From contig CAMNUC010000006.1 in the NCBI GenBank assembly GCA_946560015.1, positions 1 through 32,938 on the forward strand: a stretch of 32,938 nt of DNA. The letters are read 5' to 3'. How positions within the stretch are numbered: the stretch's first letter is position 1; each line of letters starts with the position of its first letter. Positions 8,385 to 14,550 of the stretch are shown piece by piece. The stretch comes from an uncultured Candidatus Saccharibacteria bacterium (GTDB lineage Bacteria > Patescibacteriota > Saccharimonadia > Saccharimonadales > Saccharimonadaceae). The notes beneath the pieces are model-generated. The model did no database searches. It was not told the origin of the DNA and worked only from the letters and a program-made list of their open reading frames with translations. The position numbers were made by a program, and so were the translations under genes.

Positions 8385-9731
8385 ATGGAAAAGATCCCCA
8401 GTTTTCACCAACCGGAACAAGAACCCGGTACTAGGCCAGATGTTTGCCCACCACTTACAGACATTTTGCAAAGCCCGGAGCAAGCTGAGCGGATTTGGCC
8501 AGAGTACGCCGCTGAGCTTCTTCCACAAATTGAAAAGCATACCCAGGATGCTCACGCTATCGCCGAATATCTTGACGTCCTCAAACAAGGTGTTCTTGAC
8601 ACGGATACACGGGGGCGCTTCTATGAATCGGCTAGCAATTTGTTAAATAACCCTGAGCAAGAGCGTATTGCGTTATTTTTGCCATTTGAGAGTTTTCCGA
8701 CCCCCGACGACCATGGCCATGCAGCGGAGCAGTTCCGCTCAAGCTATCTTACTGCTTGGAGCAATCTTCTACACGTACAAGATGTCAGGGCGAGCTTTGT
8801 GGATGGCGACGTTTTGGAAGTGGATGCACGCCCAGGCGACCCCGAGCGAGTTGTTAAGGCAGCGCATTTGGCACCATGGCTAGTCCAGCATGGGCTCATT
8901 ATGGCGCAAGATGTTATTTCGATTGCCAGCGGGAATGATCAACTTTTAACGCGCAGCCTACTCGAAACCAAAGGTCTCATGCTAGATATGGGGCTGCTCT
9001 CCACAGCGGAACAACGCTCTCTAGAGAGGATAGAGCACAGCCTCCCCGAGCGCTCTCCTACTGCTCCGCCAAGGTATATTACACTAGCTCGCCAAGCTTG
9101 GCTAGCAGAAAAAGCTCGCGGTATTGAGCGCCCTGCTATCGCAACGCACGATCTAGATATGTCGTTTTCTGAACGCTTAGCTGGGCTAGAGGAGGAGATT
9201 GCTGTTGCTAGGGAAATTACCGACAGTATTGACCCCAATGTGAGTTATGGAGTAGCATGGCTTGGTGGATCGCGACTCAAAGGTTATAGCCAAGATAGCT
9301 CCGACCTCGACCTCTATATCCCAGTCAAATCTACAGAGTATGGGGAAGGTCTAATAGCCGTTGATGGCGCTAGTACGGTGCCAGTGTTAGATATTAAAGA
9401 CGACTTGCCCAGCTATGCGCACGAAGTGTTTAATATGGCGTGGGTTGGCGAACCGCAAAAGATCACCGCATTACAGTGGTTACTTGCGCCAGAGTATTTC
9501 AAAGAAGCCGACCTCCAAACCCGCAAGTGGACTACGGAACGCCTCGAACAAGATTTATTGGAATACCGGCTACTACATAAAGGCTACCCTCGCTTGTGCC
9601 CGGACACTAACCCAGAGTACAAGAAGTATATTTCGATGGATGGTCAAAGTGCTTTTTATGAAAGCGGGTATCGCATTCTTGCCACTAGAATTTTCGCAAA
9701 TTCTATATTCATACCACAAATTAGAGAATAA
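8385..9731 (+). CDS. Protein with C-terminal Pol-beta-fold nucleotidyltransferase domain
   Basis: A 448-residue soluble protein. The first roughly 260 residues are helical and not recognised. Residues 290-315 contain LGGSRLKGYSQDSSDLDLY, matching the nucleotidyltransferase signature GS..(S)DxD (Gly295-Ser296, Asp307, Asp309), and Asp336 in VPVLDIKDD is a plausible third metal ligand. These residues are those used to transfer NMP groups in the DNA polymerase beta superfamily (MNT-type, aminoglycoside and CCA-adding enzymes). The substrate cannot be read from sequence. The long N-terminal region argues against a simple MNT toxin/antitoxin protein. It is a single-gene unit next to the accessory operon. 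Confidence 0.75.
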   Translation: MEKIPSFHQPEQEPGTRPDVCPPLTDILQSPEQAERIWPEYAAELLPQIEKHTQDAHAIAEYLDVLKQGVLDTDTRGRFYESASNLLNNPEQERIALFLPFESFPTPDDHGHAAEQFRSSYLTAWSNLLHVQDVRASFVDGDVLEVDARPGDPERVVKAAHLAPWLVQHGLIMAQDVISIASGNDQLLTRSLLETKGLMLDMGLLSTAEQRSLERIEHSLPERSPTAPPRYITLARQAWLAEKARGIERPAIATHDLDMSFSERLAGLEEEIAVAREITDSIDPNVSYGVAWLGGSRLKGYSQDSSDLDLYIPVKSTEYGEGLIAVDGASTVPVLDIKDDLPSYAHEVFNMAWVGEPQKITALQWLLAPEYFKEADLQTRKWTTERLEQDLLEYRLLHKGYPRLCPDTNPEYKKYISMDGQSAFYESGYRILATRIFANSIFIPQIRE

Positions 9732-9916: not shown

Positions 9917-11128
9917 TCACAGAGTGTCGCCACTTAAGGTGGTGAACGGCCCGCCATCGTCAGGTTTACTGACAGCCAGTCCCAACTGCGACCAGCTAAT
10001 CTGGCTTCCCAGTGTGAACAGCGCTGTATAGTAGCCGATCTCGTTATCGGCAGCAATGCCGTCCGTCTGCACAAAGCCCATGATGAACTTTACGATATTC
10101 ATCTCCGCCCGAATCATGCTGGCGTCGACCGTCAGCCCCAGACGCTTGTACATCTGTTCGCGATTGGCGGCACCAATCTTGGCGGGCAAGGAAGAATCTT
10201 CCAATACCGACTTGATCTGCCGGTAGTCATAGGCCATCGCCGATGCGACTACGCTGCCCGGACCAGCTAGAGTTTTGTTCAGAGCATTCCGCAGATCGTC
10301 ACCAACGTCATGCAGCGGGCTGGTATCAGGAGCCTGTCCCATGCCAGGCGGCAAAGCAACGCCGCCACCCGGTATATAACTGGCCATAATCAAACTGGGG
10401 TTAAACCCGTTCACCCAGGCCTGCTGCCAGGCATTCAGCTGCTGATAGCAGTGTGCCACGGCAGGCCACAGGTAAGTATTGATGCGGCTCAGTAGCTCCT
10501 TCTTGCGCTTTTCGCTGACAAAGGTGCCATTCAGTCCATCGATAGCGGAGAACAGATCGCCGTAATTGCGCCGGGTCAGCTGATTCATCAGCTTATAGAA
10601 GTCGGCAGATACCGGCTCGTCAGCGTCGTAGGCGAACTTTTCCAGCGCTTCGACCAGTTTTTGCGGTACCTGATAAAGCTGCGTCCGGTCTGCCAAAGCA
10701 GCACGAATTGCGGCAATATAGGTTGCCTGGTCAACTTTCAGCACGCCACCAGTCTTCAGGATCGACAGCCAGGCATCATCAGCCGGTACTGTTGGCAATA
10801 CAGATTCCATCGACAGCACCGTCATCGGCTGGTTTTCGCGTGCTGGAGTTGCAGGGGCACCCTCAGCAGGCGCAGGTTCGACCGGGTTGATTGCCAGGAT
10901 CAGTTTACGTGCCACCAGGGTCGGCACCCCAGCGCTAGTCAGGTCTGCCTCTTTCAACATACTCAGATCGTCGGGGGCGACGGCGCCCAGGCTGCGCACT
11001 TTCTGCACAATCTCAGGCGTTGCACCCAGTTCGGTCAGTTTTTGCTCCAGAGCATCCATCTCGGGGGCGGCCGTTTCGACCGCGTCCTCGGTTCCAGTAC
11101 GCTTATCCATGTTCATCTCTTCTGCCAT
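9917..11128 (-). CDS. SAM-like domain protein of the VWA/PurA-like operon
   Basis: A 403-residue soluble protein. The start is the ATG at 11128, preceded by GGAGGTT; an in-frame upstream ATG at 11143 overlaps that site. Residues about 25-80 resemble a sterile-alpha-motif (SAM) domain, with LKEADLTSAGVPTLVARKIL-like spacing (the protein reads ARKLILAI at the end); such domains mediate oligomerisation. A Pro/Ala-rich linker follows, then about 300 helical residues I cannot assign, including a Gly/Pro-rich stretch SYIPGGGVALPPGMGQ. It is the last gene, 14 nt after the PurA-like gene. Inference: scaffold or structural partner. Its codons look GC-richer than those of the PurA-like gene. Confidence 0.75.
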   Translation of the reverse strand: MAEEMNMDKRTGTEDAVETAAPEMDALEQKLTELGATPEIVQKVRSLGAVAPDDLSMLKEADLTSAGVPTLVARKLILAINPVEPAPAEGAPATPARENQPMTVLSMESVLPTVPADDAWLSILKTGGVLKVDQATYIAAIRAALADRTQLYQVPQKLVEALEKFAYDADEPVSADFYKLMNQLTRRNYGDLFSAIDGLNGTFVSEKRKKELLSRINTYLWPAVAHCYQQLNAWQQAWVNGFNPSLIMASYIPGGGVALPPGMGQAPDTSPLHDVGDDLRNALNKTLAGPGSVVASAMAYDYRQIKSVLEDSSLPAKIGAANREQMYKRLGLTVDASMIRAEMNIVKFIMGFVQTDGIAADNEIGYYTALFTLGSQISWSQLGLAVSKPDDGGPFTTLSGDTL

Positions 11129-11142
11129 TTTGATAACCTCCA

Positions 11143-12486
11143 TTAAAGTAAGATTTTATCCTGATCGCTCGGTCCGAGCGAAATCAGCCTAACGGGTACT
11201 CCAAGCTGTTGGTAGAAAACTTCGCAACACTTTTGCATCATCTCATGCTGAGAGCTATGGATAGTGGTGATATTTGGGTTGATGCGCCCATCTTTTATAC
11301 ACGATAATAGATTCTTGCAATTCAAACAGTCGCAAATCACATCATTGCAAATTGGGCATTCCACTGTGTAGCTATCACAAATTTCCCAGACATTGTCTTT
11401 CAAAATTTGGTCAAAACACGTAACGCAGATCCCATCAAATGCAGTGCTGCCGCCACAGAGGTTAATTGCATGTCTGAGCAACTTGAAGTCGACTGCTCCC
11501 ACCCTAACTTCACCTTGCCACCTATTGGTGTCTTTGTGGCTTCTAGGTAGTAAACGGCCACGCAGCTCAGAATCAGCCGTTGGCAATGGCCCTGCGCCGT
11601 GTCTAATAGCGTAGGCACGGGTAACACCTAGACGCACTACTTTGCCCGTATATCCCGCATTTGACAATGTTTCAAGCGGGAATTGCGGCAAGGTGCGGAT
11701 TGCGCTCACATGCGGCTTAAAGCCGTATTCAACGTCCGTTAAGACGCCATGCGAGCATTCCGCTATGGCTATGCCAGAGCATTGTTGTAAGATTTCATCA
11801 AACATCCGCAAAGTTATTCCACAAGACATTAGTCTAGCGTATTGTTCCAGCGTCCATTCGACGTATCTCGGGTCGTGTAGTAGATCTAGTAACTCATTGG
11901 CGGCGTCTTGGTCTGCCGTTAAGAAATCTTTTGCTAATGACAGATTGGCGAACTTGTTTTGATAATAGGATATAATTTTCTCCAAAACTTGTCGCACCTT
12001 TGCTGTATTATCTAGATCCCTTACTCGCAAGCTCAATCCACCAGAGAACTTACGCTCCAAGCGATAAGCTTCACCAGCTCCAGTTCCTACAGTGCCTCGC
12101 GGTGCGTCTTTACGATAAAGTTCAGACAACTGCGAAGCAATCTTATGGAACGGTGTCGCGCAAAGCGTACATGGGTCAATGCTAAGCAACGCATAGGGAT
12201 TATTTAGTCCCATTCGTTGCAAAGCCTGGCCTTCGTTAAGGATGGCGTGCGGGATCGCGATAAAGCTAGGCGCAATCGCCGTTGGTATCGCTTCCAGTGT
12301 TCCGCATCCCCAATGTGAGAATGCGAACTTTTCTCCGCCATCAGTGACTATTCCATGAGAACCCTGCCCGCCACCAAACTTCAGTATTACGTCGGCATGG
12401 AAAATGTTGGCGAGTTTGTGTACTACGCCACCTTTCCCACCGTCGCCAGGACCAAGGTCGGTTACGAGATAGATTTTCTCAATCAT
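11143..12486 (-). CDS. PurA-like (adenylosuccinate synthetase paralogue) with Cys-rich insertion
   Basis: A 447-residue divergent member of the adenylosuccinate synthetase family, which joins a purine nucleotide 6-oxo group to aspartate using GTP. Conserved: P-loop region GPGDGGKGG (Asp15 and Lys18 match E. coli Asp13 and Lys16; Glu14 is Gly), catalytic His44 in GGGQGSHGIV, GTVGTGAGEAY (about 131-141), VTRAYAIRHGAGPLPT (about 288-303), and the C-terminal GVPVRLISLGP. Changed: the guanine-recognition TKLD is TCFD (356-359), and residues 354-396 hold nine Cys, including CPIC (377-380) and CDCLNC (385-390), probably binding zinc. The start is the ATG overlapping the VWA stop as ATGA. It is unlikely to be the housekeeping PurA; a modified nucleotide or ligation substrate is possible. 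Phage PurZ is another divergent paralogue, but it lacks this genomic context. Confidence 0.85.
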   Translation of the reverse strand: MIEKIYLVTDLGPGDGGKGGVVHKLANIFHADVILKFGGGQGSHGIVTDGGEKFAFSHWGCGTLEAIPTAIAPSFIAIPHAILNEGQALQRMGLNNPYALLSIDPCTLCATPFHKIASQLSELYRKDAPRGTVGTGAGEAYRLERKFSGGLSLRVRDLDNTAKVRQVLEKIISYYQNKFANLSLAKDFLTADQDAANELLDLLHDPRYVEWTLEQYARLMSCGITLRMFDEILQQCSGIAIAECSHGVLTDVEYGFKPHVSAIRTLPQFPLETLSNAGYTGKVVRLGVTRAYAIRHGAGPLPTADSELRGRLLPRSHKDTNRWQGEVRVGAVDFKLLRHAINLCGGSTAFDGICVTCFDQILKDNVWEICDSYTVECPICNDVICDCLNCKNLLSCIKDGRINPNITTIHSSQHEMMQKCCEVFYQQLGVPVRLISLGPSDQDKILL

Positions 12487-13622
12487 AGCCACTCGACTCC
12501 GCCACTCTGCGTGATAGTTGTCGTCCGGTCGTCAGAAATAGGCCAAAGATCGGTCTTCTGTTGGAAGATGTCTCCTGCCTTGGGCAAAGGCCGTTCCAAC
12601 TTATCCCGAAGCAATGCCTGCGCACCCAGCGGAATTCGTGCCAGCTGGTCAGCCAAACGCAGCGCTTCAAAACGCTCTACGCGGTGCTGCACCAGCCAGT
12701 CGGCGGTCTCGGAGAGCGTTAAGGTGCCCTCTGTCAGACCTACGATCGCTGCCTGCACTTGTGGCAGATAATCTGTCGAATCGATAATAATAATGCGATC
12801 GCTGCCATAGATCTCCGCCCAGAAGCTACTAACATAACTATCGTCTTCCACCTGGACGAAGAACGCATGTGACAGCTTCAGCAGGTCGGCTACTACATCG
12901 CCGATTCTCAGTGATGCGATTTTCGATTCGCTAAAATGCTTATTATTGCCGTAGCATTTCTTAGCATTCTCGTTCACGACATCCAGTGCTGAGTCACCAA
13001 ATACCCGGCGCAAATCACCCATCGTAAAACGATTATGTGCAGTAGCGTCAGAGACGCAAAAGTGGTATCCCTTCAGCCCAATCCGGTTGATGTAGGCGTC
13101 AGTCAGATATGCCGCTGCGAACAGCCCATACTGCGGGTCTTCCGGAGAATCGCCGCCATTTCTCTCGGGTACCATATCTTTCAGGTAGCCCACGATAGCC
13201 TTGGCGGTCATCTCGAACTGTGGCCGCTGGAAGATAAAATTATCCGACACATCGCCGAAAATCCCCAGCGCCAACTGCGGGTCATACCCATCCAGTACTT
13301 CTGCCGACAGTTCATAAGTGTCGGGTAGGTTCTTCATGAAAGTGTCAACGTTGCCGCCCATGCTGCCGGTAGTGTCCACATCAGACTCGATTGGCATCGG
13401 TACACCCACGGTAACAATCCAGCCGTCGCCGCCAGGATTCTTATCGAATCGCATCAGCGAACGCCGGATTGCACCACCAGCGGCGGGGTCCACGCTTTCC
13501 AGCAGTTTACCAGTCTTCATGGCCTGCTGCTCAGCGCGGGCGGTTACGCCGTGGTCTCGTGTAATACCGAAATCACGTTTGGCCTCGCTGTAGCTTGATC
13601 TTGAAAATACTTCTCTACCCAT
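12483..13622 (-). CDS. VWA (von Willebrand factor A) domain protein
   Basis: A 379-residue soluble protein with a metal-ion-dependent adhesion site: DTTGSM at 83-88 gives the DxTxS signature (Asp83, Thr85, Ser87), GGDSPED occurs near 155, and VSDATAH near 185-195 supplies the late Asp. Intracellular VWA proteins usually assemble complexes with kinases, phosphatases, AAA ATPases or substrates through the Mg2+ site. The C-terminal half (about 240-379) is helical and ends in a predicted partner-binding tail of unknown type. The start is supported by AAGGAGG about 11 nt upstream. It lies 16 nt after the pseudokinase-like gene and overlaps the PurA-like gene by ATGA, so the three are coupled. Confidence 0.85.
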   Translation of the reverse strand: MGREVFSRSSYSEAKRDFGITRDHGVTARAEQQAMKTGKLLESVDPAAGGAIRRSLMRFDKNPGGDGWIVTVGVPMPIESDVDTTGSMGGNVDTFMKNLPDTYELSAEVLDGYDPQLALGIFGDVSDNFIFQRPQFEMTAKAIVGYLKDMVPERNGGDSPEDPQYGLFAAAYLTDAYINRIGLKGYHFCVSDATAHNRFTMGDLRRVFGDSALDVVNENAKKCYGNNKHFSESKIASLRIGDVVADLLKLSHAFFVQVEDDSYVSSFWAEIYGSDRIIIIDSTDYLPQVQAAIVGLTEGTLTLSETADWLVQHRVERFEALRLADQLARIPLGAQALLRDKLERPLPKAGDIFQQKTDLWPISDDRTTTITQSGGVEWL

Positions 13623-13638
13623 AATTGATTAACCCTCC

Positions 13639-14454
13639 TTAATCCGACATGTTGTAGGTCGTGAACGTATGGAACTTTTTGCCCCACAAGCTATCAACCG
13701 TCTCATAAAAGGCGGTATGAGCTTGAAGTGCGTCGGTGTAGTCTCCGCGATGTAGGCTCTGCAGGCACTTGATGTACTGTAGTTCGCCTTCTTCTAGCGG
13801 GTATTGGTAATGCCACGCCCCGTCGTGATACTCTGCTCCTAGGAGCAATAGTATACACTCTGCAGCTTGTTTGATGACAAAGCCTTGTTGTGCCGGAGTA
13901 GGAACGTCGCCCAGTGTCGCAGTCGTCCAGTTGAGCATCAATAATCTATGATTGTCCGGCTCAAGCAGGAAGTTGCTGGTCAAGATAGGTGCCATTACGT
14001 TACTTTCGTATAGAAACGCCAGTAACTTCAGTAGCCGCCCCATCATCCAAGCACTGCTTTTAAGATCTACGCGTTGCTTTCTTTCTGTGATTTGCATCAA
14101 GGCAAAGGACTTTTGCAGATTTGCGTCTAAGAAGGACAGCACAATCACCTTGCGATTATTCTGTTCGTGCAGCGTCAGCCGATCTATGACTTGCGGGAAA
14201 AGCCAGTCATAGTGGACGCGTCGGTCCGAACCTGTCTGCTCAGCGTGTTCTTGCTCGTACTTCTCGGATTTCTCTGCCAGCTGACGTAATAGGTACTCTA
14301 CGCGGTCAACCACGGCATTTTGCGCAGTATCGGTAGCGATAGCTAGAATGTGCCAATTTCCTGCCGTATCACGACAGATGTGGTAATTCATGTGCCCGTC
14401 TTTACCGAGTAGGCGCAAAGTTTCGTAGTTGCCGTTTTGGCCTGTAATGACCAA
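13639..14454 (-). CDS. Pseudokinase-like protein, first gene of the operon
   Basis: About 272 residues. The start is probably TTG at 14454: GAGGAG lies 8 nt before it, whereas the in-frame GTG at 14463 overlaps that site. The C-terminal half resembles the C-lobe of a protein kinase: a helix GRLLKLLAFLYESN, then MAPILTSNFLLEPDNHRL and LMLNWTTA, which align by pattern with the catalytic loop (HGDxxPxNxL) and the DFG/DW strand. The catalytic Asp is missing, though the Asn is kept (TSN), and the metal-binding Asp of DFG is replaced by Asn. The N-lobe shows beta-strand pattern but no clear VAIK lysine. Inference: an inactive kinase-fold regulator paired with the VWA protein. The fold call is by eye and needs profile confirmation. 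Confidence 0.55.
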   Translation of the reverse strand: MVITGQNGNYETLRLLGKDGHMNYHICRDTAGNWHILAIATDTAQNAVVDRVEYLLRQLAEKSEKYEQEHAEQTGSDRRVHYDWLFPQVIDRLTLHEQNNRKVIVLSFLDANLQKSFALMQITERKQRVDLKSSAWMMGRLLKLLAFLYESNVMAPILTSNFLLEPDNHRLLMLNWTTATLGDVPTPAQQGFVIKQAAECILLLLGAEYHDGAWHYQYPLEEGELQYIKCLQSLHRGDYTDALQAHTAFYETVDSLWGKKFHTFTTYNMSD

Positions 14455-14550
14455 AAGTCTCACTCCTCTCTATCAAATTTTTAAAAATCTAGTAAGTTGG
14501 TTACCGAAAGCTCGGTAGCGCCAATGTCTAGCACCCAAAAACCAACCCCT
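14455..14550 (-). promoter_or_regulatory. Structured leader of the four-gene operon
   Basis: Read on the minus strand, GTTGGTT near the 5' end pairs with AACCAAC, enclosing a TACCGA/TCGGTA hairpin with a GCTT loop. An AT-rich inverted repeat (ATTTTT/AAAAAT) precedes the GAGGAG ribosome site. No known riboswitch class is recognised. Confidence 0.45.

Follow-up and report, generated by a model that had tools for sequence, protein, structure and literature searches.

A PurA-like clade that has an altered acceptor site and accompanies vWA and kinase-like genes in Saccharibacteria, phages and plasmids

Adenylosuccinate synthetase, PurA (E. coli structures 1ade and 1cg1; Pfam PF00709), is a GTP-dependent enzyme of AMP synthesis in which Asp333 reads guanine. 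PurZ and PurZ0 (S-2L, 7odx; phiVC8, 6fm1; PurZ0, 7vf6) belong to the same superfamily, occur in a mobile-element setting and have a changed acceptor specificity, and PurZ0 is said in its 2023 description to use GTP. PMC12884076, by contrast, words the nucleotide preferences of PurZ and PurZ0 the opposite way round. R303 and R305 of PurA belong to its L-aspartate site (Wang et al. 1995, as relayed in part by PMC8342488, which gives the role of R303). A third kind of PurA-like gene lies in the Bxz1-group mycobacteriophage LRRHood, where gp256 accompanies a kinase-like gene (gp253) and gp254. Pairs of vWA and kinase proteins also occur in the TerY-P type triads, which Anantharaman et al. reportedly described in 2012 as consisting of a vWA protein, a PP2C and a Ser/Thr kinase.

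Here we analysed a 32,938-nt stretch of DNA (the window) from an uncultured Saccharibacteria bacterium that carries a PurA-like gene on the minus strand (11143..12486; 447 aa; it begins with an ATG at 12486 and its stop codon finishes at 11143, with an alternative GTG also open two codons upstream of the ATG). It is the sole PF00709 gene of the window genome (831 kb, 82% complete, 6.4% contamination), and a relative from another member of the Saccharibacteria shows 54% identity. Like PurA, the protein has the full-length fold and the counterparts of Asp13, Lys16, His41, Asp333 and G416. It differs from PurA in acceptor-side residues changed throughout its clade, in scores below the equivalog cut-offs, and in a gene setting that lacks the purine pathway and is linked instead to vWA and kinase-like genes. 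It shares the three-gene core and the diagnostic residues with LRRHood, in which, unlike in the window, the kinase-like protein bears a J-domain-like region and the two further genes of the Saccharibacteria cassette described below do not adjoin. The likeness to the TerY-P triads is limited to the pairing of a vWA protein with a kinase-like one: the kinase is degenerate here, the constant companion is a PurA-like enzyme, and no PP2C was found among the cassette genes.

Fold, phylogeny and active-site residues

The motifs on which the initial annotation was built all lie where it had placed them: GDGGKG at residues 14–19, with Asp15 and Lys18 and with Gly in place of E. coli Glu14; QGSHG at 41–45, with His44; TNRWQG, in the aspartate loop, at 320–325; and TCFD at 356–359, followed by Gln. 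The protein matched PF00709 over nearly its full length (E 9e-33), and its AlphaFold2 model, built from 45 sequences, reached a pLDDT of 93.1. All top PDB matches of the model were PurA structures (E 4.8e-27; Z 41.9), whereas the PurZ0 and PurZ structures matched more weakly (Z 34.4 and 33.6). Scores against the PurA equivalog models fell far short of their cut-offs (TIGR00184, 82.9 bits versus 395.6; NF002223, 94.4 bits versus 402). The PurZ model NF038379 gave no match to the window protein, and four of its relatives scored 29–57 bits against a cut-off of 300. Against the curated PurA and PurZ models alike, scanned clade members stayed far under the cut-off.

A phylogeny with PurA and PurZ, which the initial annotation had proposed as a check, separated the PurA-like proteins from PurA and PurZ together with support of 100/99; the tree was rooted by choice, and the claim is limited to this split. 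PurZ formed its own clade (100/100) on the PurA side, and the Saccharibacteria-type proteins likewise formed one clade (100/100). The PurA-like proteins thus constitute a third deep branch of the superfamily beside PurA and PurZ, distinguished by an active-site code and by fixed partners of its own.

To define this code, we tabulated active-site residues in an alignment of 116 sequences with E. coli numbering, 79 of which were clade members (28 of the Saccharibacteria type, 44 viral and 7 from plasmids or phages). The catalytic residues Asp13, Lys16 and His41 are kept in 79/79 and the guanine-recognising Asp333 in 78/79. On the acceptor side, N38 is replaced by Gln in 78/79, V273 by His in 79/79 and T301 by Gln in 77/79, R303 is lost, almost all members have a hydrophobic residue in place of R305, and T129 changes too; the L-aspartate-binding loop of PurA (T301, R303, R305) is not preserved. 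An independent hhalign comparison (E 7e-56) agreed, aligning R303 with a variable residue or a gap and R305 with a hydrophobic residue. Because the changed residues are kept in orthologues, they are not the product of chance or sequencing error, and the divergent paralogue with a changed acceptor site that had been proposed from the window protein is borne out across the clade. An Arg conserved close to the position of E. coli R143 (residue 142 of the window protein, within 'ETxxR' in phages) may, judged from the alignment, replace R143, which makes a loss of acceptor-phosphate binding uncertain.

The retention of Asp333 together with the loss of the aspartate-loop arginines makes GTP the likelier donor, as far as residues can tell, and places the alteration on the acceptor side. 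The initial annotation had instead read a loss of guanine specificity from TCFD. The Lys331 position of that motif is not decisive for guanine reading, because it is also His in 3/29 ordinary PurAs, and with Asp333 retained a switch from GTP to ATP is not supported. In the same table Asp333 is absent from ATP-using PurZ and present in PurZ0.

Nor did the cysteine-rich segment (residues 354–396; 11299..11427, minus strand) fare well as a zinc site. Its nine cysteines (354, 357, 370, 377, 380, 385, 387, 390 and 396) are unique to the window copy: between TCFD and a point 45 residues before the end, the window protein has 8 Cys and 26 Saccharibacteria-type relatives have 0–3. Residues 381–387, inside the segment, are the sole stretch of at least three residues with pLDDT < 50 in the model. 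A zinc site near the GTP pocket is therefore not supported, the cluster being unconserved and disordered in the model.

The same residues bear on whether the clade makes 2-amino-adenylosuccinate from (d)GMP as PurZ does. Among PHROGs the best match is phrog_1211, which bears the name 2-aminooxy adenylosuccinate synthetase, and RefSeq gives mycobacteriophage relatives that name. However, PurZ has Ser in place of Asp13 (6/6), keeps T301 and R305, and keeps N38 and V273 (Ala in PurZ0), whereas the clade shows the reverse at each of these positions; the tree groups PurZ with PurA, NF038379 scores are absent or low, and PurB, which would process the product, is usually missing from the hosts. On residues, tree and profile we reject identity with PurZ, and we regard a PurZ-type activity as quite improbable. 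The parallel with PurZ drawn in the initial annotation holds for a changed acceptor specificity and fails for the residues involved and for the place in the tree. The database name 2-amino(oxy)-adenylosuccinate synthetase, carried by many members, wrongly implies Z-DNA; L117 and other Mycobacterium phage records bear the 2-aminooxy form in RefSeq although Asp13 is kept and they are not PurZ.

Could the fold instead be enzymatically dead, or a GTP sensor that serves the vWA protein as switch or scaffold? The acceptor-site residues are lost, the Saccharibacteria-type group additionally carries E14G, T42G and Q224H (28/28 each) and G40S (27/28), and the kinase-like partner is a pseudokinase. A dead fold would be expected to drift, and the invariant catalytic residues argue against it, as does the retention of E14, T42 and Q224 in most viral members. 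A phage copy (L090:3403-5925) also has an intein-like insertion of several hundred residues exactly at the conserved His41 loop (QAGH^...HN^TV), and such sites are typical of conserved active sites. On balance a dead or purely sensing protein seems rather unlikely, if the most serious competitor to a catalytic one.

Gene partners in phages, plasmids and Saccharibacteria

In the window, the PurA-like start codon is overlapped by the stop codon of a vWA gene (12483..13622, minus strand; 379 aa), and a kinase-like gene lies upstream of both (13639..14463, minus strand; 274 aa). The model of the vWA protein (pLDDT 83.5) matched integrin beta-I/vWA domains (Z 15.2), and the protein carries a MIDAS-type DxTxS motif, DTTGSM. 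The kinase-like family has a protein kinase fold by profile comparison (E 1.7e-10), and a phage member exceeds the Pfam cut-off; the window protein by itself had no Pfam match. Its catalytic motifs are degenerate, and none of 18 members has the HRD and DFG catalytic aspartates together. In many relatives outside Saccharibacteria, the N-terminal part is J-domain-like and contains an HPD motif.

Cassette profiles recovered the order kinase-like, vWA, PurA-like in phages, including LRRHood, as well as in plasmids of Rhodococcus, Tsukamurella and Acetobacter. When viral contigs were scanned with the PurA-like alignment, 57 loci emerged. In the collection searched, tblastn found 213 phage records, of which 189 are from Mycobacterium phages, and 72 plasmid records, ordinary PurA included among the latter; the branch extends over mycobacteriophages, numerous large phages from the environment, plasmids and the host-dependent Saccharibacteria. 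With wider profiles, a vWA gene was found upstream on the same strand in 47/51 viral loci, directly adjacent in 41, and in 11/11 wide Saccharibacteria loci, and a kinase-like gene in 20/51 viral loci (about 40%). Within 1.5 kb, a vWA gene accompanied 41/51 viral PurA-like loci, whereas neither a vWA nor a kinase-like gene accompanied ordinary PurA (0/27 loci). When 1244 neighbouring ORFs from phage and plasmid loci were clustered de novo, the analysis returned only the vWA (52 loci) and kinase-like (21 loci) families as widely shared. Conversely, the vWA profile matched three of 286 other Patescibacteria genomes sampled, and a PurA-like gene adjoins in 3/3. The 45 kb S-2L record gave no vWA or kinase-module match in 44 kb. 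We found no description of PurA with vWA or kinase genes in the open-access full-text literature; subscription papers may hold one. Bxz1-group mycobacteriophages offer a tractable laboratory system for the module.

Eight phage loci (for example L075:6399-7109) have a Met-rich protein of about 230 aa, with no Pfam match, upstream of the vWA gene. In some Patescibacteria an extra protein of about 310–370 aa, related to the pyruvate kinase barrel (PF00224), lies in or beside the module (L030:5347-6288, L180:7403-8338, L179:6824-7777 and L178:10150-11256).

In the Saccharibacteria the module is part of a five-gene cassette, seen in wide loci from 12 related genomes. The two further genes are c1 (9917..11143, minus strand; 403–408 aa), whose N-terminal region weakly matches the helix-hairpin-helix (HhH) of the Rad51 N-terminal and RpoA C-terminal domains, and a Pol-beta-type nucleotidyltransferase gene (8385..9731, plus strand; 448 aa; motif GGSxLKGYxxxxSDxD), on the strand opposite to the other four; a relative of the latter in L060 matches Pfam Polbeta (E 1.4e-4). 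The contig L060 itself (IMGVR_UViG_3300000976_000008; 408 kb), which is classified as viral, has the full five-gene cassette in one direction. The c1 proteins end in Leu in 23/25 cases, and most vWA proteins of the Saccharibacteria have [WY]L at the C terminus, following variable linkers; these ends are possible C-terminal recognition tags.

A relative of the PurA-like gene was found in 14/151 sampled genomes of the family and in 24/295 of the class (about 8%; 23/285 among the most complete), and the neighbours of the cassette differ from genome to genome. G+C content is 0.50–0.53 in the central part of the cassette versus about 0.45–0.49 for most of the window. The PurA-like and vWA genes are under purifying selection (dN/dS 0.04–0.22; 0.10–0.22 for the PurA-like gene). 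Flanks around EF-Tu were too rearranged among related genomes to show an insertion site, and PADLOC returned generic kinase matches and no fitting defence family. One genome carries a second, shorter PurA-like copy without the GAGP-Asp loop region (L032:8117-9169; G089:C9), which is probably a decaying paralogue. The accessory, mobile distribution of the module points towards conflict or a phage-related function and away from basic metabolism.

Metabolic setting and possible chemistry

No ordinary PurA was found in the window genome or among the Saccharibacteria of the phylum sample; one contig of G003 (L031), from the same family as the window genome, has one. PurB is likewise lacking in the window genome, at 82% completeness. 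Among 18 other carriers, one had a PurB match over the cut-off, one a weak partial match and 16 (93–99% complete) none, so that 17/19 carriers, the window genome included, show no PurB, and the purine-pathway context is generally missing. With ordinary PurA not found and PurB usually absent, AMP synthesis by the PurA-like enzyme is very unlikely, and its product is probably something other than AMP. The PF00709 match, the fold and the conserved D13, K16, H41 and D333 would fit a fast-evolving but otherwise ordinary GTP-dependent adenylosuccinate synthetase. The clade-wide loss of R303, R305 and T301, the low equivalog scores, the usual lack of PurB in the host, the patchy accessory distribution and the fixed vWA partner make that reading scarcely credible.

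From the observed residues, partners and distribution we infer a chemistry and a role, and give about an even chance to the following: the PurA-like protein would be a GTP-dependent ligase of the PurA family with a changed amine or acceptor, serving as the catalytic part of a vWA–pseudokinase–PurA module. The reaction plan of PurA would be kept, with transfer of the GTP gamma-phosphate to a carbonyl oxygen followed by displacement by an amine. This amine would be something other than free L-aspartate in its customary binding mode and, given the N38Q, V273H and T129 changes, the acceptor, a purine or another group, would be held differently. The vWA protein and the pseudokinase could form a metal-dependent adaptor or scaffold that presents the substrate or target. 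The addition of an HhH protein and a nucleotidyltransferase in Saccharibacteria suggests that the product there is a nucleotide or nucleic-acid modification. If the module does make a new nucleotide or conjugate, it would add to the chemistry of phage–host biology.

A bolder version of this ligase would take a protein as the amine acceptor, joining the GTP-activated purine or carbonyl to the N-terminal glycine of the vWA protein in place of free L-aspartate. We consider it a long shot; if true, it would be a new protein–nucleotide conjugation derived from a purine-biosynthesis enzyme. As an observation on the vWA family itself, called starts read MGxGx[FW] in 68/76 members, and M1 and G2 are invariant in the alignments, marking a constrained N-terminal glycine.

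A different substrate, namely NAD, NAD precursors or ADP-ribosyl groups, is hinted at by neighbourhoods in several separate lineages. In G591 (L179, G591:C31:1-15000) the module lies within an NAD salvage/ADP-ribose cluster that encodes NrtR, a nucleotidylyltransferase, an isochorismatase-family protein, an NAD-kinase-domain protein, DraG and NAPRT. NAPRT, DraG and NrtR-like genes adjoin it in the Saccharibacteria genomes G043 (L022, G043:C22) and G139, NAMPT adjoins the vWA–PurA pair on either side in five phage contigs, and a NUDIX gene follows the module in the Rhodococcus and Tsukamurella plasmids. NAPRT, however, is present in 6/30 carriers versus 2/30 non-carriers, which is not convincing, and is missing from most carriers, the window genome among them, so the NAD link is a hint only and an NAD-linked enzyme is unlikely. 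NAD synthetase (NadE) is encoded close to the cassette on its contig in G043, where it is thus not replaced; together with the NAPRT missing from most carriers, this leads us to reject the idea that the PurA-like enzyme stands in for NAD synthetase. The loci with NAD salvage or ADP-ribose genes directly around the module include L179, L022, L071, L075, L087, L090 and L095.
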